Of a stretch of 64,000 nt of DNA, positions 26,262-51,912 are shown one piece after another. Origin of the DNA: Luteimicrobium xylanilyticum. GTDB taxonomy: Bacteria; Actinomycetota; Actinomycetes; Actinomycetales; Cellulomonadaceae. Each line of letters starts with the position of its first letter. Positions within the stretch are counted from its first letter, which is position 1. The DNA lies in assembly GCF_009429125.1 (NCBI RefSeq), contig NZ_CP045529.1, positions 1,364,001 through 1,428,000 on the forward strand, written 5' to 3'. The position numbers and the translations under genes are program-made. Below the pieces are notes generated by a model that worked only from the letters and a program-made list of their open reading frames with translations, was not told where the DNA came from and ran no database searches.

Positions 26262-26517
26262 GATCTCGGGCCTCCCGGCCCTCGATCAGGGGTGTCGCAG
26301 CCACCCCACAGCCGCGACACGCGTCCCGCCTGACGGGCTACCTACGGTGCCGAAGCCTACGGAGGGGTAACCTCCCGTCTCAGCCAGGCTGGACGTGCGA
26401 CGACGCCGCGCCAGACCTCCACGACGAACGACGGGGAACCGTCCCTGCCCGTCCGCCGCGCGTCCGACGCGGGCCGCCCGTCACGTCCGCACCACGTGAG
26501 AGCGGAGGGTGTCGACG
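26262..26517 (+). promoter_or_regulatory. Structured 5' leader/intergenic region before the shikimate-type operon
   Basis: This 256-nt gap holds a weak hairpin after the protease (GGGCC/GGCCC near 26268-26281). Further down are GGAGG-GGTAA-CCTCC (26361-26375) and GACGG-GGAA-CCGTC (26430-26443), the latter with a GNRA-type loop. GGAGG at 26504-26508 is the ribosome site for ATG 26518. I cannot match the leader to a known riboswitch class. Confidence 0.4.
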
Positions 26518-29500
26518 ATGCAGCTACGGGTCGCGGGGACGAACGACGCGGTGGTCGGGGAGCTCGAGGTCCCCGTCTCGAAGTACCACGCGCACCGCGC
26601 GCTGGTCCTGGCCTCGCTGGCTCCCGGGCGCAGCGTCGTGACGGGGGTGTCGCGCACGCGCCAGGTCGAGTGGACGATCGGGGTGCTGCGCGCGCTCGGG
26701 ACCCGGATCGAGATCGAGGGCGACGACTACGTCGTCGACGGCGGGCCCTACGCCACCAGCCGCGCCGGGGACCTCGTGGACCACGGGTCCCGGGCCGAGG
26801 ACGGCATCCTCGACGTCGGGTCGTCGGGAACGACGCTCTACTTCATGACGGGCCTCGCGGCGCTCGCGGACCGGCCCGTGACGCTCACGGGCATGAAGTA
26901 CTTCCGGCGCCGGCCCATCAAGGCCCTGCTCGACGCGCTGCGCGAGCTGGGTGTCGAGCTCGAGTCCGACGCCGACCGGCCACCGATCACCGTCCAGCCG
27001 CGCCGGCCGCGGGGCGGTGAGACGCACATCGCCGGCACGCTGTCGCAGTGGCTGTCGGGCCTCCTGCTCGTGGCGCCGTTCGCCGAGCACGACACGACGA
27101 TCCACGTCACGGGCGGCACGCTCAACGAGCGGCCGTACGTCGAGCTGACCGTGCGGATGATGCGCCACTTCGGCTTGGTCGTGGAGCCGTCGGACGACTG
27201 GCTGACCTTCCACGTCCCCGCGCACCAGACCCCGACGCCCGCGCGGTACGAGCTGCCGCCCGACATCGGGTCTGCGGCGTTCGGCATCGCCGCCGCGGCC
27301 GCGCACCCGTCCGACGTCCTGCTCCGCGGCCTGCGTGCCACGCGCGCCGCGGACACCGACCACCCCGAGGCCGACTTCCTCGATCTCGCGACCGCGATGG
27401 GCGTCCCGCTCGAGCGCGACCGGGAGACGGGCTTCGTGCGGGTGCGGCACGACGGGTCGCCGCTCGCGCCGGTGGACGTGGACTGCGGCCCCATCCCCGA
27501 CCTGCTGCCCGTGCTGGCCGCGATGGCGTCGTTCGCCGAGGGGACGAGCCGGTTCCGCAACGCCGGTCACGTCCGGCTCAAGGAGTCCGACCGGGTCGGC
27601 GCGATGCTCCAGCTCGGCCGGCTCGGTGCCGACGCGGGGCTCGTGCGCGGCGACGAGCTGCACGTGACCGGCGCCCGGCGCCTGCGCGGGACGCCGCTGT
27701 CGTCCTTCAACGACCACCGCGTCCTCATGGCGCTGTCCGTCGCGGCGACCCGCGCGGAAGGCGTCTCGACGCTCACCTACCCGCACGCGTACCGCATCTC
27801 CTACCCGGAGTTCCTCACGGCGATGACGTCGGTCGGGCTCGACCTGTCCGTCGTGGACAGTGCGCAGGCGGCGTCCGGGCTCGACGAGTGGGCGTCGTCG
27901 GGCCGGGCGACGGACGACGTGTCGGAGGCCGAGGCGGGCGCGCTGGGCGCACCCGCGCCACCCGACGACGGCCCGCTCGTCCTGCCCGACCGCGTGCGCG
28001 AGCTGGCCCGGACGCAGCCGGACGCGACCGCCGTCGTCGAGGTCGGGGCCGCCGGACCGGTGGCGACGACCTGGCGCGAGCTGCAGGACGAGGCGGACCA
28101 CGTCGCCGCGCTGTTGCTCGACCTCGGGGTCGAGCACGGCGAGCCCGTGGCGCTGCAGCTCCCGAACTGGCGCGAGTTCGTCGCGATCGCGCTCGGGATC
28201 ATGCAGGTCGGTGGCGTCGTGACGCCGATCATGCCGGTCTTCGGGCCGCGCGAGACGTCGATGACGCTCCAGCGCTCGCGCGCCCGCGTCGTCTTCCTCC
28301 CGACGTCGTACCGCCGCCGTCGCCCCCCGCTCGAGCTCCTCGAGGCGGCCGACGAGGCGCGGGCGGTGGGCCGTCCCGTGTCCGTCGAGCACGTCGTCGT
28401 GCTGCGCACCGAGGCGCGCCGCAGCCCGGGCGCTCGCGTCGGGGAGCCGCCGCTGCCGCTCGAGGCCGCGGAGTCGCGTCAGGCGCAGGAGTGGACGTGG
28501 CGTTACTACGACGCGGCGCTCGCATCCGTGGGCCGCGCGGCGGCCGAGCGGGTCGAGTCGTCGGGCCGCGCCGTGCGCCCCGACGACGGCTGCCAGCTCC
28601 TGTTCACCTCGGGTACGACGGGCGAGCCCAAGGGCGTCCAGCACCGGCACCGGACGCTCGCTCGCGCGACGTCGATGGAGGTCGCCCACCTCGGCCTGAC
28701 GGGCGACGACCGGGTGTACGTCCCGTCGCCGCTCGCGCACCAGACGGGCTTCCTCTACGGGATGCTGCTCGCGTGGCGGCTCGGGGTCGCCGCGGTGATC
28801 CAGCCCGACTGGGACGCGGGGGTCGCCCTCGACCAGGTCTTCGGCGCCCGCGACGACGCCGGGCGCGCGACGTTCGTCCAGGCGGCGACGCCGTTCCTGA
28901 CCGACCTGGTCACCGCCGTGGAGGCGGGCGCGCCCGCGCCGTCGACCCTGCGGATCTTCGTGCCGACGGGGGCCGCGGTGCCCCGGGCGCTCGCCCGCCG
29001 GGCGAGCGAGGTGCTCGGTTCGGCGATGCTCGGCGCCTTCGGGACCACCGAGACGTGCCTCGGCACGCTCGCGGCACCCGGCGACCGGCCCGAGGACGCC
29101 TGGGGCACCGACGGGCGCCCGTTGCCCGGCATCCGGGTCCGGATCGTGGACGACGACGGCCGCGAGCTGCCGGCGGGGACGGACGGGAACTACGAGCTGC
29201 ACTCGCCGACCATGTTCGACGGCTACCTCGACCGCCCCGACCTCACCGCCGACGTGTTCACGCCCGACGGCTGGTACCGCACGGGCGACCTCGCGCACGT
29301 CGACGACCACGGGTTCCTCCACATCACCGGCCGCGTCAAGGACGTCATCAACCGCGGCGGCGAGAAGGTGCCGGTCGTCGAGGTCGAGAACCTCCTCTAC
29401 CAGCACCCGCACGTCGCGGACGTCGCGATCGTCGCCATGCCCGACGCGCGGCTGGGCGAGCGGGCGTGCGCGTTCGTGGTGCCCGCGCGGGCGGGCGAGC

Positions 29501-29685
29501 GGCTGGGGTTCACCTCGATGCAGAAGTTCCTCGAGGCGGCGGGGTTGTCGAAGTACTACTGGCCCGAACGGCTCGAGCACGTCGACGTCCTGCCACGCAA
29601 CGCCGTCGGGAAGATCCAGAAGAATGTGCTGCGGGAGCGCGCTGCCGCGCTCGTCGCAGCCGAGAGCGAAGGAGGACGTGCGTGA
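26518..29685 (+). CDS. EPSP-synthase-like domain fused to an acyl-CoA/AMP ligase
   Basis: This 1055-residue protein has two parts. Residues 1-~440 are an EPSP-synthase fold: VPVSKYHAHRALVL, LDVGSSGTTLYFMTG, LSQWLSGLLLVAP, IPDLLPVLAAMASF, HVRLKESDRVGAM and SFNDHRVLMAL. Residues ~480-1055 are an adenylate-forming ligase: LLFTSGTTGEPKGVQ, GAFGTTETC, WYRTGDL, GRVKDVINRGGEKV and NAVGKIQKN with the catalytic Lys. The segment aligning with the PEP-binding Arg124 region (E. coli numbering) is GMKYFRRRP, so that Arg seems lost. The domain probably performs an elimination on shikimate rather than enolpyruvyl transfer, and the ligase would make the CoA ester. ATG 26518 is chosen for its spacing from GGAGG; GTG 26509 is too close. 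It heads a four-gene coupled operon. Confidence 0.85.
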   Translation: MQLRVAGTNDAVVGELEVPVSKYHAHRALVLASLAPGRSVVTGVSRTRQVEWTIGVLRALGTRIEIEGDDYVVDGGPYATSRAGDLVDHGSRAEDGILDVGSSGTTLYFMTGLAALADRPVTLTGMKYFRRRPIKALLDALRELGVELESDADRPPITVQPRRPRGGETHIAGTLSQWLSGLLLVAPFAEHDTTIHVTGGTLNERPYVELTVRMMRHFGLVVEPSDDWLTFHVPAHQTPTPARYELPPDIGSAAFGIAAAAAHPSDVLLRGLRATRAADTDHPEADFLDLATAMGVPLERDRETGFVRVRHDGSPLAPVDVDCGPIPDLLPVLAAMASFAEGTSRFRNAGHVRLKESDRVGAMLQLGRLGADAGLVRGDELHVTGARRLRGTPLSSFNDHRVLMALSVAATRAEGVSTLTYPHAYRISYPEFLTAMTSVGLDLSVVDSAQAASGLDEWASSGRATDDVSEAEAGALGAPAPPDDGPLVLPDRVRELARTQPDATAVVEVGAAGPVATTWRELQDEADHVAALLLDLGVEHGEPVALQLPNWREFVAIALGIMQVGGVVTPIMPVFGPRETSMTLQRSRARVVFLPTSYRRRRPPLELLEAADEARAVGRPVSVEHVVVLRTEARRSPGARVGEPPLPLEAAESRQAQEWTWRYYDAALASVGRAAAERVESSGRAVRPDDGCQLLFTSGTTGEPKGVQHRHRTLARATSMEVAHLGLTGDDRVYVPSPLAHQTGFLYGMLLAWRLGVAAVIQPDWDAGVALDQVFGARDDAGRATFVQAATPFLTDLVTAVEAGAPAPSTLRIFVPTGAAVPRALARRASEVLGSAMLGAFGTTETCLGTLAAPGDRPEDAWGTDGRPLPGIRVRIVDDDGRELPAGTDGNYELHSPTMFDGYLDRPDLTADVFTPDGWYRTGDLAHVDDHGFLHITGRVKDVINRGGEKVPVVEVENLLYQHPHVADVAIVAMPDARLGERACAFVVPARAGERLGFTSMQKFLEAAGLSKYYWPERLEHVDVLPRNAVGKIQKNVLRERAAALVAAESEGGRA

Positions 29686-30860
29686 GCGCCGTCGTCGAGA
29701 AGCCCGCCGCTCTGGACGAGGCCGCGTTCGCGGACCTCAAGGCCGAGCTCACCGCATGGGTGACCGGACCGGGGGAGGAGTGGGCCGAGCGCATCGAGGC
29801 CACCGGGGACGTGCCCCCCGAGCTGTTCGCCGAGCTTCGCGAGCGCGGGTACCTGTCGCTCGCGGCGCCGCCCGCGCTCGGGGGCCGGGGCATCCCGTTC
29901 CCGCGGTACCTCGAGCTCATGGAGATCGTCTCGCGCTCGCACGCGTCGGTGAGGATGCTCGTGCACGTGATCAACGGGACGTGGCGCGCCATGGCCCCGT
30001 ACGCGACGCCGCAGCAGCTCGACGAGATCGTGAAGCCGTCCGTGGCCGGCGACGCGCTCGTCGCGTTCACCCTCACCGAGCCCACCGCCGGGACCGGTGC
30101 GGACCTGCGGACCACGGTCCGGCGCGAGGGCGACACGTACTACCTGAACGGCGAGAAGCACCTCATCACGTTCGGCGTGAAGTGCGACTACTGGCTGCTC
30201 GCCGCCCGGCTCGAGGGCACGCGCGGGCACGAGGGCACGGTCGCGCTCCTCGTGCCGAACGACGGTCTCCCGGGCGTCGAGGTGGTCGACGACTCCGAGA
30301 CGATGGGCGTGCGAGGCACCGACCACGCGATCCTCCGGTTCCGCGACGTGCCCGTGCCCGTGTCCACGCGCCTCGGTGACGAGGGGCAGGGCCTCGAGGT
30401 CGCGCTCGGTGGGTTCCTGCTGCCGTCGCGCGTGTCGGTCGCGATGAGCTGCGTCGGGCTCGCCGAGCGTGCCCAGGAGCTCGCGATCGAGTACGCGAAC
30501 CGGCGCGAGACCTTCGGCAAGAAGCTGCGCGACCGGCAGGCCGTGCAGTTCTACCTGGCCGAGAACTACGCCGACATCGCCGCCGCGCGGGCGCTCGTCC
30601 TGCAGGCCGCCCGCGCGTACGAGGACGGCGCCCCCGACGCTGGCGCCCTGTCGAGCGCGTCCAAGATGGTCGCCGTCGACATGCTCGCCCGCGTCACGGA
30701 CAAGGCCCTGCAGATCCACGGCGGCCAGGGCTACTGGCACCGCAACGCCATCGAGCGCGTGTACCGCGACGCCCGCGCGCAGCGGTTCGAGGAAGGCACG
30801 AACGAGATCCAGAAGCTCGTCGTCGCGCGGGCCGTCCTCGACGGCACCGCCGGCTTCTGA
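29682..30860 (+). CDS. Acyl-CoA dehydrogenase family flavoprotein
   Basis: The 392-residue protein has AFTLTEPTAGTGADL (FAD/substrate loop), YLNGEKHLITFG, GVRGTDHAILRF, ETFGKKLRDRQAVQF, QIHGGQGYWHRNAIERVYRDAR and RFEEGTNEIQKLV, which contains the catalytic Glu position of the family. GTG 29682 overlaps the upstream stop (GTGA) and AAGGAGG precedes it. In the proposed cyclohexanecarboxylate pathway it would oxidise or, in reverse, reduce a ring double bond of a CoA ester; the step is an inference. Confidence 0.88.
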   Translation: MSAVVEKPAALDEAAFADLKAELTAWVTGPGEEWAERIEATGDVPPELFAELRERGYLSLAAPPALGGRGIPFPRYLELMEIVSRSHASVRMLVHVINGTWRAMAPYATPQQLDEIVKPSVAGDALVAFTLTEPTAGTGADLRTTVRREGDTYYLNGEKHLITFGVKCDYWLLAARLEGTRGHEGTVALLVPNDGLPGVEVVDDSETMGVRGTDHAILRFRDVPVPVSTRLGDEGQGLEVALGGFLLPSRVSVAMSCVGLAERAQELAIEYANRRETFGKKLRDRQAVQFYLAENYADIAAARALVLQAARAYEDGAPDAGALSSASKMVAVDMLARVTDKALQIHGGQGYWHRNAIERVYRDARAQRFEEGTNEIQKLVVARAVLDGTAGF

Positions 30861-30897
30861 GCACCCGCACCCGCCCACCCGAGGGAGAACACCAGGC

Positions 30898-31761
30898 ATG
30901 ACCACCCCGAACTCGGCGCCCGTCGCCGTCGTCACCGGCGCGTCCCGCGGCATCGGCAAGGTGCTCGCGCTCAAGCTGGCGCAGCGCGGCGTCGACGTCG
31001 TCGTCAACTACAAGACCAACGAGGACCTCGCCGAGAAGACCCTCGCCGAGGTGCGCGCCGCCGGGGCGGACGGCCTCGTCGTCCGCGCCGACATGGAGTC
31101 GCCCGACGACATCGACGCGCTCTTCGACGCGGTCCGCGAGCGCTACGGGCGGATCGACCACTTCGTCGCGAACGCCGCCGCGTCCGCGTTCAAGCCCGTC
31201 GCGGCGCTCAAGCTGCACCATCTCGACCGGTCGTACGCGATGAACGTCCGCTCGTTCGTGCTCGGTGCGCAGCGCGCCGCGGAGCTCATGACGGGCGGCG
31301 GTCGGATCGTGTACCTGTCGAGCTACGGCTCGCTGCGTGCGTTCCCGACCTACGCCGCGCTGGGCGCCGCCAAGGCCATGGCCGAGTCGTACGTCACCTA
31401 CATGGCGACCGAGTTCGGGCCGCGCGGCATCACCGTGAACGCGGTCAACGGCGGGCTCATCGACACCGACTCGCTCGAGTACTTCTACGAGCGCGTCCCC
31501 GGCATGGCGCCCATGGAGTCGGTCCTCGAGAAGCTGCCGCTCCAGCGCCCCGGCACCGCGGAGGACATGGCCGACGCCGTCGACTTCTTCCTGTCGGACA
31601 AGGCGGGGTACATCACCGGGCAGGTGCTGTCCGTCGACGGCGGGCTCACGGTCGTCGCGCCGCCGTTCTGGGCCGACACGACCGGCGACCTGCGGGCCGC
31701 CGTGTTCGGCGCCGACGACGCGCTCGACGCCCACGGCACCGCCGCGCCCGAGCAGGCGTGA
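30898..31761 (+). CDS. SDR with enoyl-reductase YX6K motif, ChcA-like
   Basis: This 287-residue short-chain dehydrogenase starts VAVVTGASRGIGKVLA (NAD(P)H site) and has VANAAASAF and VYLSSYGSL. The catalytic pair is in TYAALGAAKAMAES: Tyr and Lys are separated by six residues, as in FabI/FabL enoyl reductases, not three as in ketoreductases. This fits 1-cyclohexenylcarbonyl-CoA reductase (ChcA), the last step to cyclohexanecarboxyl-CoA. A ~30-residue extension ends the protein. Ribosome site GAGGGAG; the stop overlaps the next start (GTGA). Confidence 0.85.
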   Translation: MTTPNSAPVAVVTGASRGIGKVLALKLAQRGVDVVVNYKTNEDLAEKTLAEVRAAGADGLVVRADMESPDDIDALFDAVRERYGRIDHFVANAAASAFKPVAALKLHHLDRSYAMNVRSFVLGAQRAAELMTGGGRIVYLSSYGSLRAFPTYAALGAAKAMAESYVTYMATEFGPRGITVNAVNGGLIDTDSLEYFYERVPGMAPMESVLEKLPLQRPGTAEDMADAVDFFLSDKAGYITGQVLSVDGGLTVVAPPFWADTTGDLRAAVFGADDALDAHGTAAPEQA

Positions 31762-34046
31762 GCGCCGACCCGCTTGCGCTGACCCGTCGACCGTGGCGGC
31801 TCGGGACCCTCGAGCTGCCGCACCGCGTGCTCCTCGGCTCCATGCACACCGGGCTCGAGGCGGCGGGCGTCGCCGTGCCGGGCGCCTGGTCGGCCGTGCC
31901 CGACTCGCGGGCCCTCGCCGCGTTCTACCGCGAGCGCGTCGAGGGCGGCGCGGCGCTCGTCGTCACGGGCGGGCTCGCGGTCGACGGGCCGGGGCGCGGG
32001 GGAGCGGACTACGCGGTCCTCACCGCGCCCGGCGTCGGCGAGGCGCTGGCGGAGGTGACCGCCGCGGTCCACGAGGCGGGCGGGCGCATCGCCGCCCAGC
32101 TCTTCCACGCGGGGCGGTACGCGCTGTTCTCCGAGGTCGTGGGGGAGTCCGGGGAGCCCGCGGAGGCGGTCGCACCGTCGCCCGTGCCCTGGCGGGCGGC
32201 ACGCGGAGCCGTACCCCGCGAGCTCACCCACGACGACGTGCTCGCGACCGTCGAGCACTTCGCCGACGCCGCCCGCGTGGCCGTCGCCGCCGGGTTCGAC
32301 GCGGTCGAGGTGATGGCGTCCGAGGGGTACCTACTCAACCAGTTCTGCTCGCCCCTGACGAACCTGCGCGACGACGCGTGGGGCGGGGATCCGGTCCGTC
32401 GCCGGGCGTTCCCCCTCGCCGTCGTGCGGGCCGTGCGCGCCGCCGTCGGGCCGGGCGTCCCCGTGCTCGTCCGGGTGTCGGGCGACGACCTCATGCCCGG
32501 ATCCTCGACGCCCGACGACGTCGCTGCGCTCGTGCGTGAGCTCGTCGGGACCCCGGACGAGCCGCTCGCCGACGCCGTCAACGTCGGGGTGGGCTGGCAC
32601 GAGTCCACCGTCCCCACCGTCCAGTCCGCCGTCCCGCACGGCGCCTGGATCCCCGTAGCCGAACGCGTCGCCGCCGCCGTCCGGACCAGCGCCCGGCCCG
32701 ACGTCCCCGTCATCGCCAGCAACCGCTTCACCGACCTGCGCGACGTCGAGACCGTCCTCGCCCGCGGCACCGTCGACGCCGTCGCGCTCGCCCGGCCCTT
32801 CCTCGCCGACCCCGCCGTCGTCGCCAAGTCCCTCGCCGGCCGGTTCGACCTCGTCACCACCTGCCTCGGCTGCGACCAGGCGTGCATCGACCGGTCGCTC
32901 GTCGGGGAGCGCGTGTCGTGCCTCGTCAATCCCCGGGCCGGACGTGAGGTGGAGCTTCCGTTGCCTGCCGACGGCGCATCCACCTTCGCCGAGCAAGCGG
33001 GTTCTGCGCCGAGCAAGCGGGGGAATCAAGCTTGGTCGGTGCGGAACCCGCTTGCTCGGCGGGGTGCGGAGGTCGGACGGGGGCTCGCCGTCGTCGGGGG
33101 CGGGCCCGCCGGGCTGGCTGCCGCCGTCGACGTCGCGCGTCGCGGGCATCCCGTGACGGTGTTCGAGGCGCGGGAGGTGCTCGGCGGGCAGCTCGAGCTC
33201 GCCGCGCGCGTGCCCGGCAAGGAGGACTACGCCGCGGCGGTCGCGGGGCTGACCGCCGAGCTCGACGAGCTCGGGGCCGACGTGCGGCTCGGGGTGCGGG
33301 CGCGGGTCGAGGACCTGGTCGGGTTCGACGGCGTCGTGGTCGCCACCGGGGTCCGACCGCGTCGGCTCGACGCCGGGCCTGGCGGGCTGCCCGGCGCTGA
33401 CCTGCCGCACGTCGTCGACTACGAGACCGCCCTGCGCGACGGCATGCCCGCCGGGAGCGTCGCGATCATCGGCGGGGGAGGTGTCGGCGTCGACGTCGCG
33501 ACGTTCCTCGTCGAGGAGCACGACGAGGCGGCGCGCGCCGCGCGGTTCGCCGACCGGTTCGGGCTCGAGCTCGACATGGCACTCGTCGGCGCCGGACACG
33601 GCCAGCGCTGGGCCGCTCCGCCGCCCGCCCGGTTCCCGACGGCGCAGCCCCGGCCCGGCGGCCAGGTCACCGTGCTGCGCCGGTCCGGGAAGATCGGGAC
33701 CGGCATCGGCGTGACGTCGCGATGGGTCGTGCTCGGAGCTCTCCGGCACGCCGGTGTACAGATGTTGACCGGCGTTTCGTACACGCGAATCCGGCCAGGC
33801 TCGCTCGAGATCGTGGACGCCGACGGCGCGGCTCGCGAGGTCCCCGCCGACACCGTCGTCGTGTGCGCCGGCCAGGAGGCCGTCACCGGCCTGGCGGGCG
33901 AGCTGGACCGCCTCGGGGTTCCGTGCGCCGTCGTCGGGGGAGCGCGCGACTCCCGCACGCTCGACGCGGTCCGCGCGACCCGCGAAGGCCTCGCGGCGGC
34001 TCGTGCGCTCCTCCCCGGAACCCCTCCAGACAACTCCGCTCGCTGA
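31758..34046 (+). CDS. 2,4-dienoyl-CoA reductase-like FMN/4Fe-4S/FAD oxidoreductase
   Basis: The 762-residue protein has an Old Yellow Enzyme-type FMN barrel (residues 1-~370; AAQLFHAGRYA, MASEGYLLNQFCSP, VIASNRF), then a 4Fe-4S cluster motif CLGCDQACIDRSLVGERVSC, and a C-terminal FAD/NAD(P) domain beginning LAVVGGGPAGLAAAVDVA with a second GGGGVGVDVA. This is the FadH/trimethylamine dehydrogenase layout; it would reduce diene-CoA intermediates. A ~30-residue linker between cluster and FAD domains is encoded by the inverted repeat at 32987-33061. Coupled to the SDR gene by GTGA overlap. Confidence 0.88.
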   Translation: MSADPLALTRRPWRLGTLELPHRVLLGSMHTGLEAAGVAVPGAWSAVPDSRALAAFYRERVEGGAALVVTGGLAVDGPGRGGADYAVLTAPGVGEALAEVTAAVHEAGGRIAAQLFHAGRYALFSEVVGESGEPAEAVAPSPVPWRAARGAVPRELTHDDVLATVEHFADAARVAVAAGFDAVEVMASEGYLLNQFCSPLTNLRDDAWGGDPVRRRAFPLAVVRAVRAAVGPGVPVLVRVSGDDLMPGSSTPDDVAALVRELVGTPDEPLADAVNVGVGWHESTVPTVQSAVPHGAWIPVAERVAAAVRTSARPDVPVIASNRFTDLRDVETVLARGTVDAVALARPFLADPAVVAKSLAGRFDLVTTCLGCDQACIDRSLVGERVSCLVNPRAGREVELPLPADGASTFAEQAGSAPSKRGNQAWSVRNPLARRGAEVGRGLAVVGGGPAGLAAAVDVARRGHPVTVFEAREVLGGQLELAARVPGKEDYAAAVAGLTAELDELGADVRLGVRARVEDLVGFDGVVVATGVRPRRLDAGPGGLPGADLPHVVDYETALRDGMPAGSVAIIGGGGVGVDVATFLVEEHDEAARAARFADRFGLELDMALVGAGHGQRWAAPPPARFPTAQPRPGGQVTVLRRSGKIGTGIGVTSRWVVLGALRHAGVQMLTGVSYTRIRPGSLEIVDADGAAREVPADTVVVCAGQEAVTGLAGELDRLGVPCAVVGGARDSRTLDAVRATREGLAAARALLPGTPPDNSAR
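32987..33061. repeat. REP-like palindromic element inside a coding sequence
   Basis: Arms CGCCGAGCAAGCGGGTTC (32987-33004) and its exact reverse complement (33044-33061) enclose 39 nt. A third copy of the first 15 bases lies at 33008-33022. The element is in frame inside the dienoyl-CoA-reductase-like gene, encoding a linker. It looks like an inserted short mobile palindrome. Confidence 0.8.
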
Positions 34047-34080: not shown

Positions 34081-34192
34081 ATCGTAACGGTTTGCACCGA
34101 TTGTGTGGGTGCTGGTTTGCGCGCCGACGTGCGGATTCGAGGGTGGCAGCGCTGTTCGCAGCGGTGTCGGTGCCGAGTGGGAGGGTGACCTT

Positions 34193-35395
34193 GTGACGTT
34201 GCAGGGGTTCCGAGTCGAGCTTGCGCCCAATCCTGTTCAGGCGGACCGCCTAGCGCAGCACGCTGGCCTACACCGGGTTGTCTTCAATCACTGCCTGGCC
34301 CACGTCAAAGCTGTGATGGGGCAGCGGGCCGCTGAGCGCACCTACGGGCTGGCGGAAGGTGAACTAACGCCCGCGGCCTCATGGTCGGCGCCCGAGCTGG
34401 AGAAGTACTGGCGCCGGACACACGCCCAGGTCTACCCGTGGTTCACCGGCGAGGGTTTGTCCTCACGGGTTCCGAAGGAAGCGTGCCGGGCGTTGGCGTC
34501 GGCGTTGTCGAACTGGGCTAAGTCAAAGGCCGGCGCCCGGAAGGGTCGGCGCGTCGGGTTCCCCAGGTTCAGGCGGCGTAAGGATGGCGCGACCTGCCGG
34601 TTCGACGCCCGCACCGCCTACCCCGCCACCGCGCGGTCGGTGCACGTGCCCACAGTCGGGAAGGTCGCTGTGCGCGAGGATATGGGCTGGTTGACCGATC
34701 GGATCGCCGACGGGCGGGCCCGGGTTCTGGGTTCACGGTTCGAGCGCCGGGCCGGGCGGTGGTGGCTCTCCTTCCAGGTGGAGGTCGACCGCGCCGACCT
34801 CAACACTCGCCGGGCTGTACCCACGGGCGCCGCGGTCGTCGGGATCGACCTTGGGATCAAGACGTTCGCCACGGTCGCCGACGGTGACGGGAAGGTGACC
34901 AAGGTCGCGAACCCGCGCCACCTCGGGCGCGAGCTCCGCCGGCTGCGACGGGCGAACAAGGCCCTGGCACGCAAACGGAATGGCTCCGCGAACCGCGCCA
35001 AGGCTGCCCGCACGGTTGCGCGCGTCCATCTGGACGTAGCCCACGCCAGGGCCGACTTTCTGCACAAGCTCACCACGACACTGACGAGAACCAACTCAGT
35101 GCTCGTGATCGAGGACCTGTCGGTCGCGGGCATGGTCCGTAACCGGCGACTGGCCCGGCACATCGCCGACGCCGGGTGGGCCGAGTTTCGCCGGCAGCTT
35201 GAGTACAAGGCCAAGTGGTACGGGTCGAAGGTAATCGTCGCGGACCGGTGGTACCCCTCCACCCGCACCTGCTACGCCTGCGGGCACGTCCATCCCGGTC
35301 TCACACTGGCCGACCGGACCTGGACCTGCCCGTGCGGGACTGCCCACGACCGCGACCACACAGCCGCCCTCAACCTCCTACGACTCGCCGCCTGA
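34193..35395 (+). CDS. tnpB: TnpB-like RNA-guided nuclease (IS200/IS605 OrfB)
   Basis: The 400-residue protein opens QGFRVELAPNPVQADRL, the usual OrfB entry. RuvC-like motifs are complete: VVGIDLGIKTFA (Asp), VLVIEDLSVAGM (Glu) and CGTAHDRDHTAALNLL (Asp). A zinc ribbon, CYACGHV...TCPCG, lies between the last two. TnpB proteins cut DNA guided by an RNA from the element's right end. No TnpA recombinase is nearby, so the element is solo and would need a helper in trans. GTG 34193 is preceded by GGGAGG with 8 nt spacing. Confidence 0.9.
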   Translation: MTLQGFRVELAPNPVQADRLAQHAGLHRVVFNHCLAHVKAVMGQRAAERTYGLAEGELTPAASWSAPELEKYWRRTHAQVYPWFTGEGLSSRVPKEACRALASALSNWAKSKAGARKGRRVGFPRFRRRKDGATCRFDARTAYPATARSVHVPTVGKVAVREDMGWLTDRIADGRARVLGSRFERRAGRWWLSFQVEVDRADLNTRRAVPTGAAVVGIDLGIKTFATVADGDGKVTKVANPRHLGRELRRLRRANKALARKRNGSANRAKAARTVARVHLDVAHARADFLHKLTTTLTRTNSVLVIEDLSVAGMVRNRRLARHIADAGWAEFRRQLEYKAKWYGSKVIVADRWYPSTRTCYACGHVHPGLTLADRTWTCPCGTAHDRDHTAALNLLRLAA

Positions 35396-35510: not shown

Positions 35511-35558
35511 TTGAGATTCCTCGAACGGTCGAGTGAACGGCGGGACCGACCGCGCGAG

Positions 35559-35783
35559 ATGCGCGAGCTCGTGCGCTGCCGGCGCATCGCCCCCACGGGC
35601 GACGCGGCGGCTACACGGCAGCTCGTCGCCGACGCGCTGAGCGACAATGACGAGCCCATCGCGCAGGGCTTCGTCCCGGCGCTGGGCGACCCGCGGGGTC
35701 GCCCAGCGGGTACTCGACGTCGTCGCCGGCTTCGGCCCGCTCCGACCGTACGTCGACGACCGGGAGGTCGAGGAGGTGGTCGG
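35559..35783 (+). pseudogene. Truncated, frameshifted 5' stub of tadA/cpaF (Tad pilus ATPase)
   Basis: Two adjacent frames match the N-terminal region of TadA ATPases. The first gives DAAATRQLVADALSDNDEP...VPALGD (about 35600-35690). After a frame change near 35690-35700, the second gives QRVLDVVAGFGPLRPYVDDREVEEV (to about 35778), the GLGPLEPLL-DDPEVEEI block. Homology stops abruptly where the minus-strand gene ends at 35784. Walker motifs are absent, so the ATPase is lost. The orientation matches the tadE/tadG remnants at 43979-44616. Confidence 0.7.
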
Positions 35784-36377
35784 TCACGCAGTAGTTGTGG
35801 GCTCCCAGGGCCACCACCACACGTCGCCATCGCGCCAGGCCTCAAGGCCGGAATTTGCGTAGCTGCGGCGTAGCGAGTGCAGTGCCGCGTCCCGTTTGGC
35901 CCCGTCGTCGTACGGCCCTCCGGACGGCTTCTGGGGCTCGGGCTGGAGGACGAGGACTGTGGAGTCGCGACCGAGGCGAAGCAGGTCGATGAGATCCGCC
36001 AGAATCCGCCCGCTGAGGCGCTGATGCCGCCACCGCGGCTCAAGGTGCATCCGGTCGACGAGCACAACGGAGTCGACCCACTGCTCGGGATGGGCGCCGA
36101 TGATCTGGGCGGCAGTGGCCCCCAGTGCCTCGGCGTCCGAACTGATGGCATCGGCAGCGTCTTGGACGTCCTCGTCGAGCGCGCCCCAGCCGATCCAGCC
36201 GCGGACCATACCGATCTCAACCATCTGCAACGGGCTGCAGGCGTCGACGACGGCAGAGAACGTCCGAAGGAAGACGTCGGCGTCGGCCTCGGTGCGATCG
36301 ATGCCGGTGATGCGCACCTGAAGGTCAAAGCCCTCGCGGGCGAAGGCGTCCGGGCCGACCTCTGTGTCCGTGCTCAT
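35784..36377 (-). CDS. Hypothetical protein, possibly GNAT-like
   Basis: This 197-residue soluble protein has no family I can name with confidence. The segment VLVDRMHLEPRWRHQRLSGRILADLIDLL followed by VLVLQPEP resembles strand-helix-strand of GNAT acetyltransferases, where R/Q-x-x-G/A binds CoA; here the loop reads RHQRLS. It ends with a Trp-rich VWWWPWEP. ATG 36377 is preceded by CACACT, 7 nt upstream. Divergent from the methyltransferase by 75 bp; first gene of the accessory region. Confidence 0.5.
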   Translation of the reverse strand: MSTDTEVGPDAFAREGFDLQVRITGIDRTEADADVFLRTFSAVVDACSPLQMVEIGMVRGWIGWGALDEDVQDAADAISSDAEALGATAAQIIGAHPEQWVDSVVLVDRMHLEPRWRHQRLSGRILADLIDLLRLGRDSTVLVLQPEPQKPSGGPYDDGAKRDAALHSLRRSYANSGLEAWRDGDVWWWPWEPTTTA

Positions 36378-36452
36378 GCCATGCAGTGTGCCCCTCGAAC
36401 GCCCGCGGAGCAGCGTGTCACCCCTGTCTGATGCCAGCACTAGGGTGAGCGG

Positions 36453-38099
36453 GTGCCTATCGAGTACGGAGAAGTCTTCACACGCCGCTGGGTCGTTGAG
36501 ACCCTCCTTGACCTCACCGGATACACCGTTGACCGCGACCTCGGCACGATGCATCTGCTGGAGCCGTCCTGTGGGTCGGGCGCGTTCCTCGGGCCCGCTG
36601 TCGAGCGCCTCATTGAATCGGCGCAAGCTCACGGCCGCGTGCTTGCCTCACTCACCGATGCAGTGCGGGCCTACGAGCTGCAGGCAAGCCACATCGCAGC
36701 CTCTCGCGAGCTGTGCCGTCGGCTCCTGGTTGACGCTGGGATGAGCGATCGCTCTGCTGCGAACCTCGCTCGCACGTGGGTGCGGCACGCAGACTTCCTG
36801 CTCGATCAGGTGGAGGACCGGACAGCGGACGTGGCCATCGGTAACCCTCCGTACATCCGCTACGACGACCTCGATGATGACACGGCAGCGACCTACCGGG
36901 CCACATGGTCGTCCATGAAGGGTAGAGGCGACATCTACGTCGGTTTCATCGAGCGCAGCCTGGCGATGCTAAAGCCCGGAGGGCGGGTTGGCTTCATCTG
37001 CGCCGATAGGTGGATGCGCAACCAGTACGGGGCGGGGCTGCGCGGTCTCGTCGCCGAGCGTTATGCGGTCGAGCACGTCTGGACCATGCACGACGTCGAC
37101 GCTTTCGAGTCCGAGGTGTCCGCCTACCCGGCGATCACGGTGCTGGCCAACCGTCGCCAGGGCTCCGCAGTCGTCGCTGACACGACTGCCGAGTTCAGCA
37201 AGAGCTCGGCCTCCGCGCTGGTCAAGTGGTCGGGCGACGAGTCGCTAACGGACTTTACCGACGTCGGCGTCCAGGCCCACAGGTTGCCCCATTGGTTCGC
37301 GGGCGACGATCTGTGGCCGACCGGGTCGCCAGCGCGCCTGGCCCTCGTGGAACTGCTCACTGACCGATTCGGTTCGCTCCACGATCCCGAGACCGGCACA
37401 AAGGTCTCGATCGGAGTCGCCACCGGCAACGACAGGGCGTACGTGACCAAGAACCCGAAGGCCGCTGAGGCCGACCGGATGCTGCCGCTGGCCATGCGCA
37501 GGGACCTTATGTCGGGAACCTTCGACTGGCAGGGCAACTACCTGGTCAATCCGTGGGATGTCGACGGAAACCTCGTCGATCTAGCCGACTACCCGCGTAT
37601 GGCGGAGCACTTCGCCGGTCACCCGGAGCTCAAGCAGCGCTTTGTCGCCCGCAACAACCCCAACCGGTGGCACCGCACAATAGACAAGGTTCACGCCGAC
37701 CTGACCGCCCAGCCGAAACTGCTGCTTCAGGACATGAAGGCCCACATCCACCCCGTCCTGGAGCCGGGGGGCTTCTACCCGCACCACAACCTGTACTACG
37801 TCGTGTCGACGACCTGGGACATGGAGGTGCTCGGGGGCCTGCTGCTCTCCCGCGTCGCGCAAGCCTTCATCGAGGCCTACTGCGTTCGCATGCGTGGTGG
37901 GACGCTGCGCTTCCAGGCGCAGTACCTCAAGAAGATCCGTGTCCCTGGCCCGGAATCGATTTCCGACGATCTCGCCGGACGGCTGCGCACAGCGTTTGCC
38001 GACCGCGACGTCGACGCAGCCACGGTGGCCGCCGCCGAGGCATACGGGATCGACCCGGCCGCGTACGACGTCCTGACTTCGTCCGACACGGAAGAGTGA
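36453..38099 (+). CDS. N6-adenine DNA methyltransferase of a PaeR7I/XhoI-type R-M system
   Basis: The 548-residue protein has EPSCGSGAFLGP (AdoMet motif I) and VAIGNPPYIRYDD (catalytic NPPY), then a long C-terminal target-recognition region. This is the gamma-class layout of stand-alone Type II adenine methylases such as M.PaeR7I. The following gene is a PaeR7I-like nuclease, so the expected target is CTCGAG with methylation of A. GTG 36453 follows TAGGGT by 6 nt, so the methylase is probably translated from a leaderless mRNA. Confidence 0.85.
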   Translation: MPIEYGEVFTRRWVVETLLDLTGYTVDRDLGTMHLLEPSCGSGAFLGPAVERLIESAQAHGRVLASLTDAVRAYELQASHIAASRELCRRLLVDAGMSDRSAANLARTWVRHADFLLDQVEDRTADVAIGNPPYIRYDDLDDDTAATYRATWSSMKGRGDIYVGFIERSLAMLKPGGRVGFICADRWMRNQYGAGLRGLVAERYAVEHVWTMHDVDAFESEVSAYPAITVLANRRQGSAVVADTTAEFSKSSASALVKWSGDESLTDFTDVGVQAHRLPHWFAGDDLWPTGSPARLALVELLTDRFGSLHDPETGTKVSIGVATGNDRAYVTKNPKAAEADRMLPLAMRRDLMSGTFDWQGNYLVNPWDVDGNLVDLADYPRMAEHFAGHPELKQRFVARNNPNRWHRTIDKVHADLTAQPKLLLQDMKAHIHPVLEPGGFYPHHNLYYVVSTTWDMEVLGGLLLSRVAQAFIEAYCVRMRGGTLRFQAQYLKKIRVPGPESISDDLAGRLRTAFADRDVDAATVAAAEAYGIDPAAYDVLTSSDTEE

Positions 38100-38101
38100 C
38101 C

Positions 38102-38809
38102 ATGACGACCTTTGAGGACTATGACGCTGCGATCCGCGCATTATGGGCGGGACGCGACCTGCAAACACAGAAGCAGATCGAATCCGGCAGGATCGACGCC
38201 GGCACACGGGGATCGACCACGGGGGGAAAACACCTCGATCCGCTTCAGGAGCTAGTTGCTGAGCAGTTCGAACCGCTCCTGCAGATTGGTGCGAAGGTGC
38301 GCTCCACGGGCGTCCTCACGCTTCCCGGCTGGTATCGGCGCGCGAAGAACTGGGACATCGTCGTGACCTACGGCGACACCCTGATCGCGGCAATTGAGTG
38401 CAAGTCGCAATCCGGCTCGTTCGGCAACAACTTTAACAACCGGACCGAGGAAGCCATCGGCAACGCGGTGGACCTTTGGCGCGCATACGAGGCTGGGCAC
38501 CTCGGCCGCGTGAGGCCGTGGCTCGGCTTCATCATGGTTCTGGAGCGGTCACAAGGATCGCTGGAGTCTGTCCGGGACCGCGGCGTGCCGATCTTTCCGG
38601 TCGATGAGCGCTTCCGCGATACGTCTTACACAGACCGCTACGCGATCCTGTTCGACCGGCTGGTTAAGGAGCGGCTCTACGACGCGGCCTGCCTCATTTC
38701 TGCCGAGAAAGGCAAGGGGATCCACTCCGAGCCGCTGGAAGAGGTTTCGACGAAGAATCTGACCGCCGCCATCGCGGGTCGCGTGGAATACATCAAGGGC
38801 CTCGCGTAG
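38102..38809 (+). CDS. PaeR7I/XhoI-type Type II restriction endonuclease
   Basis: The 235-residue protein is about the length of R.PaeR7I (~246). Its signature is LIAAIECKSQSGSFGNNFNNR then TEEAIGNAVDLWRAYE; the E-x-K within IECKSQ is the likely metal-binding part of the PD-(D/E)xK active site. The family cuts CTCGAG. It starts 2 nt after the methylase stop. Such sites occur in the surrounding host DNA (for example 1043-1048 and 1163-1168), so host survival depends on the methylase. Confidence 0.85.
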   Translation: MTTFEDYDAAIRALWAGRDLQTQKQIESGRIDAGTRGSTTGGKHLDPLQELVAEQFEPLLQIGAKVRSTGVLTLPGWYRRAKNWDIVVTYGDTLIAAIECKSQSGSFGNNFNNRTEEAIGNAVDLWRAYEAGHLGRVRPWLGFIMVLERSQGSLESVRDRGVPIFPVDERFRDTSYTDRYAILFDRLVKERLYDAACLISAEKGKGIHSEPLEEVSTKNLTAAIAGRVEYIKGLA

Positions 38810-39297
38810 TCTCGGGGCCGCGCGAAGTAGTTGCGAACCGCTTGCTGGTTGTGGCTTTCGAAGTACCGATGACGTCCGGGCAGTGCCGATCAGGTCACTT
38901 ACCTGGCCCCACATGCCGCCAAGTCGTTACCGAGTAGCGGACGCGCTCGGTCGAGTGCGCCTTGGAACATAAAGTCGATATGACCGTGCCAATCACGGTA
39001 GCCGTGGGCGCAGCTCTGGGGTGCCAGACGAGCACGCCCTCAGGGCGACCGTCGCCGTGCAGGTCCAAGCAACGCAGCAACGTGCGCCCCTTGGAGCGAC
39101 CATGTGGGAGCTCCTTACACACGCCGGTCGACGAAGCCAAACCGCCGGGGGTGAGCTTTCGCTGATCCTTCGTTCGACGGCGTTGGTCTTGTCGAGCCAG
39201 CTCCTCGCGCGACGACGGGGTACGCGACGACGGTTGTGGCAGGCGCTTGATAGGTCGCCAAACTGCCGACGCGCGACCTGTGACATGCTTGCTCACT
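38810..39297. other. Gene-poor gap
   Basis: Nothing I can support lies in these ~490 nt between the restriction gene and the Zn/HTH gene. Short open frames exist on both strands but show no family features or good starts. The composition is mixed and may be remnant mobile DNA. Confidence 0.5.
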
Positions 39298-39726
39298 GTG
39301 TGGACGGTGCGGCAGCTGACGGAGGAGCTGGGCGTTCGCGAACACCGGATCGCACGACTCGCGCGCACCTGGGGATGGAAACGCGGCGGCCCGGCATGGA
39401 GTTTGACGGACGAGCAGGCCGATCGGATCCGGGAGCACGTTCGCGGATGGGATGCGAGGACCCCAGTGGTGTGCAGCGTGGACGGGTGTGACACGCGCGC
39501 GGCGGCGAAGGGGATGTGCCATGCTCACTACCTTCGTGTCTGGCGGCACGGGTCGACCGAGGCGCGGACAGGTGGCGAGCACCAGCGCGCGAAGACCCAC
39601 TGCCCCCACGGTCACGAGTACACGCCCGAGAATACGTACCGATTCGCGGACGGGCGGCGACGGTGCAGGGCGTGCAGGCTGAAGACAGCGAGTGTGTCAG
39701 CTCATGTCGGAGTGGCACTCGGGTGA
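39298..39726 (+). CDS. Phage-type HTH + zinc-binding (HNH-like) protein
   Basis: The 142-residue protein starts WTVRQLTEELGVREHRIARLARTWG, a helix-turn-helix. The C-terminal half has paired zinc motifs, CSVDGCDTRAAAKGMCHAHY and HCPHGHEYTPENTY...CRACRLK. The latter block is often seen at the end of phage and mobile HNH nucleases, but a clear HNH active site is not visible, so it may be a truncated nuclease or a DNA-binding accessory protein. GTG 39298 is inferred from where the HTH begins. Confidence 0.6.
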   Translation: MWTVRQLTEELGVREHRIARLARTWGWKRGGPAWSLTDEQADRIREHVRGWDARTPVVCSVDGCDTRAAAKGMCHAHYLRVWRHGSTEARTGGEHQRAKTHCPHGHEYTPENTYRFADGRRRCRACRLKTASVSAHVGVALG

Positions 39727-40445
39727 AATTGCCCTCCTGGCTATGGCGCAACTTGGTTGCCCCTGCTACGTTCCGGCGTCAGACGCTTCGACGACGAGCA
39801 GGGGGGACATGTACGGGTTTCGCGTGTATGAGCTTTGGGCTACCCAGGGTGCGACAGGACGGGCGCACCTCGAGATTGACGGCCCGTTGGCGCCGCAAGA
39901 GCACCTCATTGATGTCTTGGTCGCGCTCACCGCGGACCTCGGCGCTCGGGGCTTGTTGACCGACATCCCCAAGTTGCAGCATCCTGAGGAGTGGGAAACC
40001 GCGCCATTCCCCGATCTTCGGACGCCTCAGATGCAGATAGTGGAGGCTCGCGAGCTTGACAGACGCCGTCTGTTTCTAAAGTTCAAGTTTGGACGATATG
40101 GAGAGTATGGCGAGGCCATTGGCCCATCAGGATCGATCGATCTCCATGACGCAGCGGCGGTCCATGAGTACCGCGCCATGTTTTTTCTGCCCGAACATGG
40201 GAAGGTTGGGCGGATCGCTGTTGAGGCCATCGGGACAACTTGCCCTGATGTGATGCTCCTGCCCTGGCTTGGTTACGCGTCGTACCAGCGGGACAAGAAC
40301 GCGTGGTTCCGGCTGAAGTGGAAGCAGGTCGCCGACAGGGCGCGGATCATCGCGATGCTCAAGAACGCCGAGAAGGTTCAGGCCGAGCTGACCCAGAAGC
40401 GGCCGGCTGAGCCTGGACGTGGTGCAGGAGTAAAGGCGAAGCTTA

Positions 40446-41400
40446 GAGCGTTATTCAGCGGCTGTGGTCGGGTCGTGTGGCTGCTGGCGCCTGACCTGCG
40501 TCGGTGCTGGTCAGGGTCAAGTTCAGGCAAGTAGCGCAACGGTCCTCGCGTCCGGTTTGATCCAGGTTGTCTACGCCAGGATCGAGCACGAACGAAGGAC
40601 CGATGCGCTACCACTCTACGTGCGGGCTGACCCCCGCCCAGACGACCGAGCTGATCGCCCGCGCCTGGCAGGTCCACACCGGCCGACCCCGACCCGAGCG
40701 GTACGAGTTCGAGCTCGGGTTCGGACGCGCCGTCACGATGATCCTGATCAAGGTGCGTCACAACCTGGCCCAACAGCTGACCGGGGACCTGTTCGGGATC
40801 GCCCAGCCCACCGTCTCGCGGATCTGGCGGTACCTGATGCCGATCATCGGGCAGGTCACCGCGATGGACCGTCGACACCTGCGCGACGCCCTCGAACGCG
40901 GCACGGTCTTGATCGACGGCACCCCGATCCCTACCGGAAACAGGGCCGGCACCGGCACGACCAACTTCAACGCGAAGCACCGCAAGCAGGCCCTCGGCGT
41001 CCAGGTCGCCGCGTTCTTCGACGGCACCCTGGCCGACGTCTCGGCCCCCGTGCCCGGATCACGGCACGACTCCCGCGCCCTGGACGAGGTCGGCTGGGCC
41101 GAACAGATCACCGCCGCCCGCACGCGCCGCACGGTCGCGGTCCTGGCCGACACCGCCTACGTCAAGCACACCCGCCTGACCCCGCGCCGCAAGACCAGGG
41201 GCGCGCCCCGCACCGACGCGGACCGCGAGCACAACCGTCACATCTCGTCCCTGCGCGCCCCGGTCGAACGCACCATCGCGCTGCTCAAACAGTGGAAGAC
41301 CCTGTCCGCCGGCTACCGCGGACGCCTGACCGAACTACCAAGCGTGATCCACATGATCGTCAACCTCGAGTTCTACCGCCAAGCCACGTGAATAACGCTC
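40446..41400. mobile_element. IS5-like insertion sequence, 955 bp
   Basis: Perfect 12-bp terminal inverted repeats GAGCGTTATTCA (40446-40457) and TGAATAACGCTC (41389-41400) are flanked by the target duplication TTA (40443-40445 and 41401-41403). One transposase fills the element, its stop codon lying in the right repeat. The intact ends and duplication indicate a recent insertion. Confidence 0.92.
40603..41391 (+). CDS. IS5-family DDE transposase (DDE_Tnp_4 type)
   Basis: The 262-residue transposase has an N-terminal HTH (FGIAQPTVSRIWRYLMP) and a DDE core: GTVLIDGTPIP (Asp), VPGSRHDSRALDE (Asp) and LRAPVERTIALLKQW (Glu). GAAGGA precedes ATG 40603. It appears complete and catalytically competent. 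Confidence 0.9.
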   Translation: MRYHSTCGLTPAQTTELIARAWQVHTGRPRPERYEFELGFGRAVTMILIKVRHNLAQQLTGDLFGIAQPTVSRIWRYLMPIIGQVTAMDRRHLRDALERGTVLIDGTPIPTGNRAGTGTTNFNAKHRKQALGVQVAAFFDGTLADVSAPVPGSRHDSRALDEVGWAEQITAARTRRTVAVLADTAYVKHTRLTPRRKTRGAPRTDADREHNRHISSLRAPVERTIALLKQWKTLSAGYRGRLTELPSVIHMIVNLEFYRQAT

Positions 41401-41754
41401 TTACCTACAACGTCGAGGGAAAGTACGCACTTGACGGCATCATCAACGTGGCACTGGGCTGGACGGAGCGTGCGAGTGACTCTGACTACGTCGTCCGTAT
41501 CGAGCGGATTGCCGGATATGATCCTGAGACGCTCGACGCCGGCGGCCTTCGGTTTGACGATGCATCGATCCGTGTGACAGAAGACGGCAGATCCAAGACG
41601 ATCCGGCCCGATTCGATCCGGGCGCTCTTCACTTATCCACTGGCTGCAGATGTTCAGCCGGCGGACGATGCATGGATCGACGGGGTGCGGCTCGGGCTGG
41701 CCGGGACTCTGTCGGATGGCACTGATATAACGATCTGAGTCGGGAGGAGGCCTT

Positions 41755-42327
41755 ATGCTGCGAGCGCTCGTCGAGCTCTTCGCCCGTCACTGGCAGGGGT
41801 TGAGCAACCTCCAGAACCACAGTGGCGGAGCGCCGCGGTGGGTGACACGCGCGGTGCTATACGGAGCACCGGTGATGGCGGCGGGTGTTGCGATCTGGCA
41901 GAGTTGGGGTGTTCGAAGTGTCGCGGACACCCTCATTGCGGCTTTCTCGCTCCTGACCGGCGTTCTAATCGCGGTGTTCGCGCAGATCGCTGGCTGGCGA
42001 ACCCGTCTCGATGACCGTGCGTCGGATCGCCCGGTCTCCGAGGCGCCCGCTCGGCGCGCCGTCGATGCCACTGCGGCCCATGCGCTTGTGGGCGTGGTGG
42101 CCTGTTGTCTCGCGACCGGGACGAGTGTGTTGGCGAAGGTTGAGATTCCGCCAGAGCGTGTCTGGAGCGGCCTGTCGGTCGGCCTTGCGCTGTACGTTGC
42201 TCTGCTCATCTTGCTCATCGTCGGTACGGTCTTCGGCGCCTACCAGGACAACGTCGATCCGGCCGTCCGGGAGGCCGATGACGACCTTCAGCGGCCCGAG
42301 AGTCGAGAGCTTCGGATCGCCGCCTAG
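41755..42327 (+). CDS. Four-helix membrane protein of unknown function
   Basis: The 190-residue protein has four hydrophobic helices: AVLYGAPVMAAGVAIWQSW, TLIAAFSLLTGVLIAVFAQI, ALVGVVACCLATGTSVL and GLALYVALLILLIVGTVFG. The ends and the loop between helices 2 and 3 are charged. GGAGGAGG precedes ATG 41755. It follows the IS-interrupted gene with 16 nt spacing and looks like its partner. A soluble protein paired with a small membrane protein is a common form of phage-defence modules, but no family is recognised here. Confidence 0.65.
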   Translation: MLRALVELFARHWQGLSNLQNHSGGAPRWVTRAVLYGAPVMAAGVAIWQSWGVRSVADTLIAAFSLLTGVLIAVFAQIAGWRTRLDDRASDRPVSEAPARRAVDATAAHALVGVVACCLATGTSVLAKVEIPPERVWSGLSVGLALYVALLILLIVGTVFGAYQDNVDPAVREADDDLQRPESRELRIAA

Positions 42328-42500
42328 GCGTGGTCCGGTCGATGCGGCATTACCCCCGGCGGGCGAGCTCGTGCCATATCCCGGGTGTCCTGCTTTGGCC
42401 CCGACGGGCCAGGCATCGGCGCGTCCGGGAGTGGATGGCGAAGAGCCAGTCGAAGGTCTGGGAGCCATCGCCCGTCAGCGGTCGCCACTAAGGTGCTTCC

Positions 42501-43181
42501 ATGATTCTCGTTGCCGCCTCGCACGGTCCCTGGTACAACTGGCTCACGCCAGCTGTTGCCGTGTCGATCCTCGCCCCCCTCCTTGCTTTGGTCGGCGTGA
42601 TTCTCACGGTGTGGCGAAGCGGGGTCAACGCGATCAACGCCGAGAACGCCCGTGCCCAGAGCGCGATTCACGCGGAGAACGTCCGCGCATCGAATGCGAT
42701 TGCTGCGGAGGATCGACGGGCAGCCGCAGCTATAGAGGCCGAGGACCGTCGGCATGCCCATGACCTCGAACTCGATTTGGCGCGGCGGCTACGGGACGAT
42801 CAACGGGTCGCGTACGAGAGGCTTGCTGGAGCACTGACCAGTGTCGCCAGCCCGTTGGGCTATTTTGCAATGGGAGTCGAGGGTACTACGTTGGGCAATT
42901 ATGGTGAAAGGCAACTGGAATTGCTGGAAGCGGCTGTTCGGGCAATCGACGACGCTCTAGAGGGCCATGCTCTCTACATCCCAACGGATATACGGCTCTC
43001 CGCGGGTCTTGTCTCATCCGACGCCTTCATGGTCCAGGTCTATGCGGGAAATCTCCGCGATGACGAAGGGGGCTTGGAGAAGCGCCGGGAGTACGCAAGG
43101 AAGGCGCGCAATCTATCAGTTGAAGTGATGACCACGTTGCGCGCGGGTGTCGGCCTCTCCGACAAGAGAGTCGACAAGTAG
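42501..43181 (+). CDS. Membrane-anchored hendecad coiled-coil protein
   Basis: The 226-residue protein has one N-terminal membrane helix (AVAVSILAPLLALVGVILTVW), then four exact 11-residue repeats: AINAENARAQS, AIHAENVRASN, AIAAEDRRAAA and AIEAEDRRHAH, an undecad coiled coil. A helical C-terminal domain follows. ATG 42501 follows TAAGGT by 6 nt (leaderless pattern). The next gene starts 2 nt after the stop and has the same TM plus coiled-coil plan. The gap before it (42328-42500) shows nothing. Confidence 0.65.
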   Translation: MILVAASHGPWYNWLTPAVAVSILAPLLALVGVILTVWRSGVNAINAENARAQSAIHAENVRASNAIAAEDRRAAAAIEAEDRRHAHDLELDLARRLRDDQRVAYERLAGALTSVASPLGYFAMGVEGTTLGNYGERQLELLEAAVRAIDDALEGHALYIPTDIRLSAGLVSSDAFMVQVYAGNLRDDEGGLEKRREYARKARNLSVEVMTTLRAGVGLSDKRVDK

Positions 43182-43183
43182 CT

Positions 43184-43741: not shown

Positions 43742-43964
43742 CACCACGGCCGTCCACGGGATGCGTCGGGTCTCCTGGGCCGTCCTGACGCTTCTCCCGC
43801 CACGTGGTTCGGCGCTCCTGGTCTGTCCGGTACTGGTCCCACTCGGTGCGCTGCACGTAGTCCTTGGACATGGCCTCCAACTTTTCCAGGATGGCCCGCT
43901 GTCCGTCGTCCATGCGCTGAAGCCACCTGACCAGGTCACCAGCGTTCGGAAGCAACTTCCACAC
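43688..43964 (-). pseudogene. Small coiled-coil/TM protein, apparently frameshifted
   Basis: From GTG 43964 one frame reads WKLLPNAGDLVRWLQRMDD...DQYRTDQERRTTWREKRQ, helical and charged. Near 43790-43810 a second frame takes over sensibly, ending TAVVSDLAALIALAVSLHIIG with a hydrophobic tail and a stop at 43688. Joined, they would give a ~90-residue protein with a coiled coil and a C-terminal membrane anchor, as in many small phage-type proteins. Could instead be a shorter or longer intact gene in one frame (to 43641). Confidence 0.35.
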
Positions 43965-43978
43965 AGACCACGTCCTGT

Positions 43979-51904: not shown

Positions 51905-51912
51905 CCCGTGTA

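Follow-up and report, generated by a model that had tools for sequence, protein, structure and literature searches.

A probable shikimate-to-cyclohexanecarboxyl-CoA operon with a fused AroA-like/ligase gene in the polyketide-synthase-free genome of Luteimicrobium xylanilyticum

The window analysed here, a stretch of 64,000 nt from the single-contig, 4.2-Mb genome of Luteimicrobium xylanilyticum (G000:C1:1364001-1428000), carries an operon of four genes on its forward strand between 26518 and 34046. The first gene (26518..29685, 1055 aa) encodes, by Pfam and NCBIfam matches, an AroA-like/acyl-CoA ligase fusion of the PlmJK/AnsJK type. It is followed by an acyl-CoA dehydrogenase family protein in the AnsL/PlmL position (29682..30860, 392 aa; PF00441, PF02770, PF02771), a short-chain dehydrogenase (SDR) with a Y-X6-K motif in the ChcA position (30898..31761, 287 aa; NCBIfam, 3oic), and an Old-yellow-enzyme (OYE)/2,4-dienoyl-CoA-reductase-like FMN, FAD, Fe-S protein in the AnsM/PlmM position (31758..34046, 762 aa; PF00724, PF07992, 1ps9). 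A preceding sequence-only reading had described four genes with these activities, the first two domains being fused in 1055 residues, and our reading of the sequence together with Pfam confirms this description. Its further statement that all four genes are coupled was slightly overstated: the GTG-initiated dehydrogenase gene overlaps the fusion gene, and the flavoprotein gene the SDR stop, by 4 nt each, but at the third junction the SDR gene begins 37 nt after the dehydrogenase gene. The fusion gene runs from ATG 26518 to a TGA ending at 29685; this start is the better one, since a GGAGGG at 26504-26509 is suitably spaced for it while the alternative GTG at 26509 overlaps the GGAGGG. Our scan of the intergenic leader (26262..26517, forward strand), which was also read directly, returned no sigma-70 consensus promoter and no terminator; at 75% GC, the empty promoter scan is unsurprising.

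The fusion protein consists of an AroA-like domain (residues 1-440; EPSP_synthase PF00275 at 10-434, E 1.6e-74), a linker of about residues 441-490, and a ligase domain of about residues 491-1040 (AMP-binding PF00501 at 495-904, E 3e-69; AMP-binding_C PF13193 at 955-1032). The ligase retains the SGTTGEPKG loop as well as YRTGD and the lysine motif NAVGKIQK, and therefore looks active. Its top NCBIfam match is the cyclohexanecarboxylate-CoA ligase TIGR03208 (418 bits, below the cut-off of 792), and a search of plasmid-borne proteins, which returned matches to the ligase domain of the fusion only, had AliA cyclohexanecarboxylate-CoA ligases (38-40% identity) among the best. The operon proteins stay below the NCBIfam cut-offs of the cyclohexane-specific equivalogs generally; the acyl-CoA dehydrogenase likewise resembles cyclohexane-carbonyl-CoA dehydrogenases below cut-off. 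The SDR motif reads YAALGAAK in the sequence; the best NCBIfam match of this protein is the FabL enoyl reductase NF005975 (239 bits, below the 328 cut-off) and its closest solved structure the enoyl-ACP reductase 3oic (FabL; E 2e-52). The flavoprotein carries a CX2CX3CX11C motif, and E. coli 2,4-dienoyl-CoA reductase 1ps9 is its closest solved structure (E 6e-124). In the linker that joins its OYE and FAD domains lies, in frame, a 75-bp imperfect palindrome (32987-33061; 32-nt arms, 91% complementary), which is present in L. album too and has a 72% copy at genome position 1323722; the element is perhaps a small mobile palindrome whose presence the protein linker tolerates.

How widespread this arrangement is was assessed by a scan of GTDB, which gave 168 encoding stretches; the 80 best of them were taken as relatives. 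All of these 80 are fusions, some cut by contig ends, and 59 of the 80 have all four genes in the order of the window, a conservation that argues against a chance arrangement; the remaining ones are cut by contig ends or have no detectable SDR or OYE, mainly in Arthrobacter and Cellulomonas. The fusion of L. album is 95% identical to that of the window, as is that of the same-genus genome G001. The dehydrogenase is found in the same position, at 64-83% identity, in every relative whose contig extends to it, and at 95% identity in L. album. Outside the genus, Curtobacterium pusillum is among the sources of the closest homologues; its strain ATCC 19096 (locus L008) shares 68% identity in the fusion, 82% in the dehydrogenase, 74% in the SDR and 56% in the OYE-type protein. 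This species, Propionibacterium cyclohexanicum and Alicyclobacillus are makers of omega-cyclohexyl fatty acids.

The same set of activities is found in the ansatrienin genes ansJKLM-chcA of Streptomyces collinus, in which, unlike in Luteimicrobium, the AroA-like protein and the ligase are separate; PlmJK of phoslactomycin biosynthesis, judging also from its name, is presumably itself an AroA-ligase fusion. The phoslactomycin and lactomycin clusters of Streptomyces list their cyclohexanecarboxyl-CoA (CHC-CoA) genes in the order plmJK-plmL-chcA-plmM, that is, the same four functions in the same order, plmJK being a single J+K gene annotated as a ligase (PMC5852498). Whereas the plm genes are set in a modular polyketide synthase (PKS) cluster, the Luteimicrobium genome has no PKS, and the two are likened here by gene names and order. 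The sequence-only reading had taken the AroA-ligase fusion to be new. We reject this, as the fusion exists already in at least 80 GTDB genomes and plmJK has, by name and place, the same arrangement in the phoslactomycin clusters; the Luteimicrobium operon, its fused first gene included, is of a known and widespread type. The assignment to CHC-CoA formation made in that reading, on the other hand, is supported: the operon has an AroA-like domain and a ligase (elsewhere fused or adjacent) with dehydrogenase, ChcA-type SDR and OYE in the order fusion-L-chcA-M, and content, order and relatives together make the predicted assignment a strong one.

What the AroA-like domain does is of particular interest, as, to our knowledge, the role of the EPSP-synthase homologue in the CHC-CoA pathway has never been settled, and our literature search on the enzyme of this first step gave nothing usable. 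In E. coli EPSP synthase, S169, S170 and S197 hold the 3-phosphate and S23 and R27 the carboxylate of shikimate-3-phosphate (S3P), and K22, R124 and K411 are PEP/glyphosate residues. The latter are described as such in PMC3411725. We compared 79 fusions with E. coli AroA and 22 canonical AroA proteins of the order, in E. coli numbering. The AlphaFold model of fusion residues 1-457 (mean pLDDT 93) has the EPSP synthase fold, S3P-bound EPSP synthases being its best matches (TM 0.83/0.89 against 1g6s), and, as in EPSP synthase, K22, R27, G96, R124, S170, Q171, E341, R344, H385 and R386 are kept in 79/79 fusions, which also match E. coli AroA at Y200, D313 and K340. Unlike EPSP synthase, the domain has a ligase attached and shows the changes S23Y, R100Y, S169L and S197E in 79/79, while S23, S169 and S197 are kept in 22/22 canonical AroA; K411 is likewise replaced in 79/79, but the replacement reads as an invariant R in one alignment and as I in another, and we put little weight on this position. 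Four of the five PEP-site residues (K22, R124, R344, R386) are thus kept, K411 being the fifth, but the S3P site of EPSP synthase (EC 2.5.1.19) is not. As judged from these residues, the domain has lost its shikimate-3-phosphate pocket and kept the acid/base and most PEP-site residues. With the S3P-pocket residues replaced, we infer that its substrate is unphosphorylated, and the domain probably takes a hydroxyl off unphosphorylated shikimate in a first elimination.

The mechanism of this step is a matter of hypothesis, for which we see two possible forms. The domain may be a PEP-independent shikimate 1,4-dehydratase on a re-used EPSP-synthase fold, in which a new invariant glutamate (E204 of the fusion, aligned to E. 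coli S197) and the lost 3-phosphate pocket would permit elimination, and the diene acid would be handed to the ligase; we offer this as a tentative proposal, short of an even chance. Since the PEP site is largely kept, enolpyruvyl-assisted chemistry is also possible: the domain might still use PEP to enolpyruvylate unphosphorylated shikimate, making a leaving group for a subsequent elimination. The retention of K22, R124, R344, R386, E341 and D313 in 79/79 (with K411 as R, or I by alignment) speaks for the use of PEP, whereas the operon has no obvious pyruvate lyase and no fusion keeps R100 or S23, and we think it rather unlikely; being a step-1 variant of the pathway favoured below, its likelihood is not exclusive of that pathway. 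That the domain might serve as a spare EPSP synthase, in the making of aromatic amino acids or for tolerance of glyphosate, would be suggested by the TIGR01356 aroA match of the fusion, which at 301 bits exceeds the cut-off of 287. However, the genome holds a separate canonical AroA as well as a MurA-like third family member, and the canonical AroA proteins keep precisely those S3P-pocket serines that every fusion has replaced; we have rejected this idea, which is scarcely credible.

We consider it highly probable, from the gene content and the genome context, that the four genes make CHC-CoA from shikimate and that this most likely enters the type II fatty acid synthase through FabH, yielding omega-cyclohexyl membrane fatty acids. 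In this pathway, a 1,4-elimination by the EPSP-synthase-like domain would strip unphosphorylated shikimate of a ring hydroxyl, the fused ligase, by its family, would form the CoA thioester, and reduction and dehydration of the ring would fall to the flavoprotein, the ChcA-like SDR and the acyl-CoA-dehydrogenase-like enzyme, as in the known pathway. An unlinked enoyl-CoA isomerase would then shift the last double bond. Four ECH_1 matches in the genome fall in three proteins (MenB-like, a 270-aa ECH and FadB-like), among which a ChcB is not separable by sequence; the ECH-family protein at genome 2097702-2098394 is perhaps the isomerase, a candidate by family membership alone. Finally, FabH (genome position about 3349700) would prime chain growth.

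The absence of a PKS, remarked on for the neighbourhood of the operon by the sequence-only reading, extends to the entire genome: a whole-genome PF00109 profile search found one ketosynthase, FabF, and one thiolase, the latter being the weak second match (genome 3581438) that we considered and rejected as a ketosynthase. With this FabF as the only PF00109 ketosynthase, use of CHC-CoA as a PKS starter in this genome is rejected, and FabH priming of fatty acids becomes the most likely fate. The corresponding PF08545 search found FabH and an OleA-like protein; the OleA-like ketosynthase gene (G000:C1:2522335, locus L087) is followed by an OleB-like alpha/beta hydrolase gene, and the pair is possibly a long-chain olefin pathway. 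Close relatives of the operon in a known producer, together with the lack of a PKS to use the starter, make entry of CHC-CoA into fatty acids likely. The producer in question, C. pusillum, is recorded with omega-cyclohexyl fatty acids (PMC5023266, PMC3426160), a further Curtobacterium report is cited in PMC5118839, and Herbiconiux, also of the Microbacteriaceae, may have cyclohexyl-C17:0 (PMC10011130). For Luteimicrobium, our literature search found no fatty acid data. C. flaccumfaciens and C. luteum carry the operon as well and we know of no record of them as omega-cyclohexyl producers, so that presence of the genes may not guarantee the cyclohexyl lipid.

Relatives elsewhere adjoin FabF-like, KAS III, ACP and FabI-like genes, as expected of an operon that makes a chain primer. 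Another 12 loci, of Streptomyces, Acidothermus, Streptosporangium and an Eremiobacterota MAG (L040, L053, L056, L058, L059, L061, L063, L064, L071, L074, L077, L083), have a discrete FabF-like gene after that of the flavoprotein, possibly for an undescribed CHC-primed type II product; several of the Streptomyces among them have a second AMP-ligase too. In Lentzea (L080, 7712-9974), two KAS III genes and an ACP gene lie directly upstream of the fusion. By their gene content, these loci look like dedicated CHC-primed chain builders. Such discrete ketosynthase, KAS III, ACP or second ligase genes beside the operon in Streptosporangium, Streptomyces and Lentzea, and the incorporation of CHC-CoA into a polyketide in phoslactomycins (PMC5852498), might suggest that also here the CHC-CoA primes another product, such as a small secreted acyl compound or amide, instead of membrane lipids. 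The window's genome, however, has no ketosynthase besides FabF, its operon has no flanking chain-builder genes, and its own clade is mostly found at a housekeeping site, which together render this improbable. The nearness of the ligase to AliA among plasmid-borne proteins and the below-cut-off resemblance of the dehydrogenase to cyclohexane-carbonyl-CoA dehydrogenases would also be compatible with a degradative operon that, like the ali genes, activates and dehydrogenates cyclohexanecarboxylate as a carbon source. Such a route has no place for two reductases or for an EPSP-synthase-like domain that is joined to the ligase, in the relatives too, and several relatives adjoin fatty acid or polyketide genes; we hold degradation to be very improbable.

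In a quick maximum-likelihood tree, in which long branches were flagged, the fusion of the window joins L. album and then Curtobacterium (including C. pusillum ATCC 19096), Frondihabitans, Gryllotalpicola, Humibacter, Subtercola, one Kocuria and one Acidipropionibacterium, a clade with 100 SH-aLRT; the Cellulomonas fusions belong to the opposite half, together with those of Arthrobacter and Streptomyces. This Luteimicrobium/Microbacteriaceae clade includes 22 loci in which the operon has ffh on one side and rpsP-rimM on the other, with no PKS there. Like C. pusillum, in which ATCC 19096 carries the operon and the species has the omega-cyclohexyl lipid (PMC5023266), Luteimicrobium has the genes; unlike the Curtobacterium operon, its operon occupies another chromosomal place, adjoining a trypsin-like gene. 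The fusion occurs in 5/150 genomes of the family, the three outside the genus at only 58% identity, and in 2/3 genomes of the genus. In the sister genome G002, which is without the operon, the genes for LysR, a LysE-like protein, an aminotransferase and trypsin, followed by the counterpart of window 35554-35777, keep the order of the window, and about 9.3 kb of the window correspond to about 0.65 kb there. This empty site is most simply read as the result of lateral gain, and the operon was probably acquired from a Microbacteriaceae-type source, although it may instead have been lost in G002. Directly after the operon lies a TnpB/OrfB-IS605-type gene (34103-35395) with no obvious tnpA, which is absent in L. 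album, where sequence matching 35527 comes after the operon. Further along, the GC content falls to 63-65% at about 36000-44000, compared with 70-77%, and this segment, with an adenine-methylase-like gene at 36453-38099, was probably acquired as a restriction or defence island. A tmRNA gene with the tag ADSKRTDFALAA is located at 51539-51906.

With this operon, the PKS-free Luteimicrobium becomes a probable host of the shikimate-to-cyclohexane pathway, whose best-known examples are found in the antibiotics of Streptomyces and the lipids of Alicyclobacillus. In the Microbacteriaceae, its operon at the ffh-rpsP site is a stable chromosomal fixture, likely serving lipids. For the family as a whole, the active-site pattern shared by the fusions opens the first pathway step, for which an explanation is lacking, to direct test.
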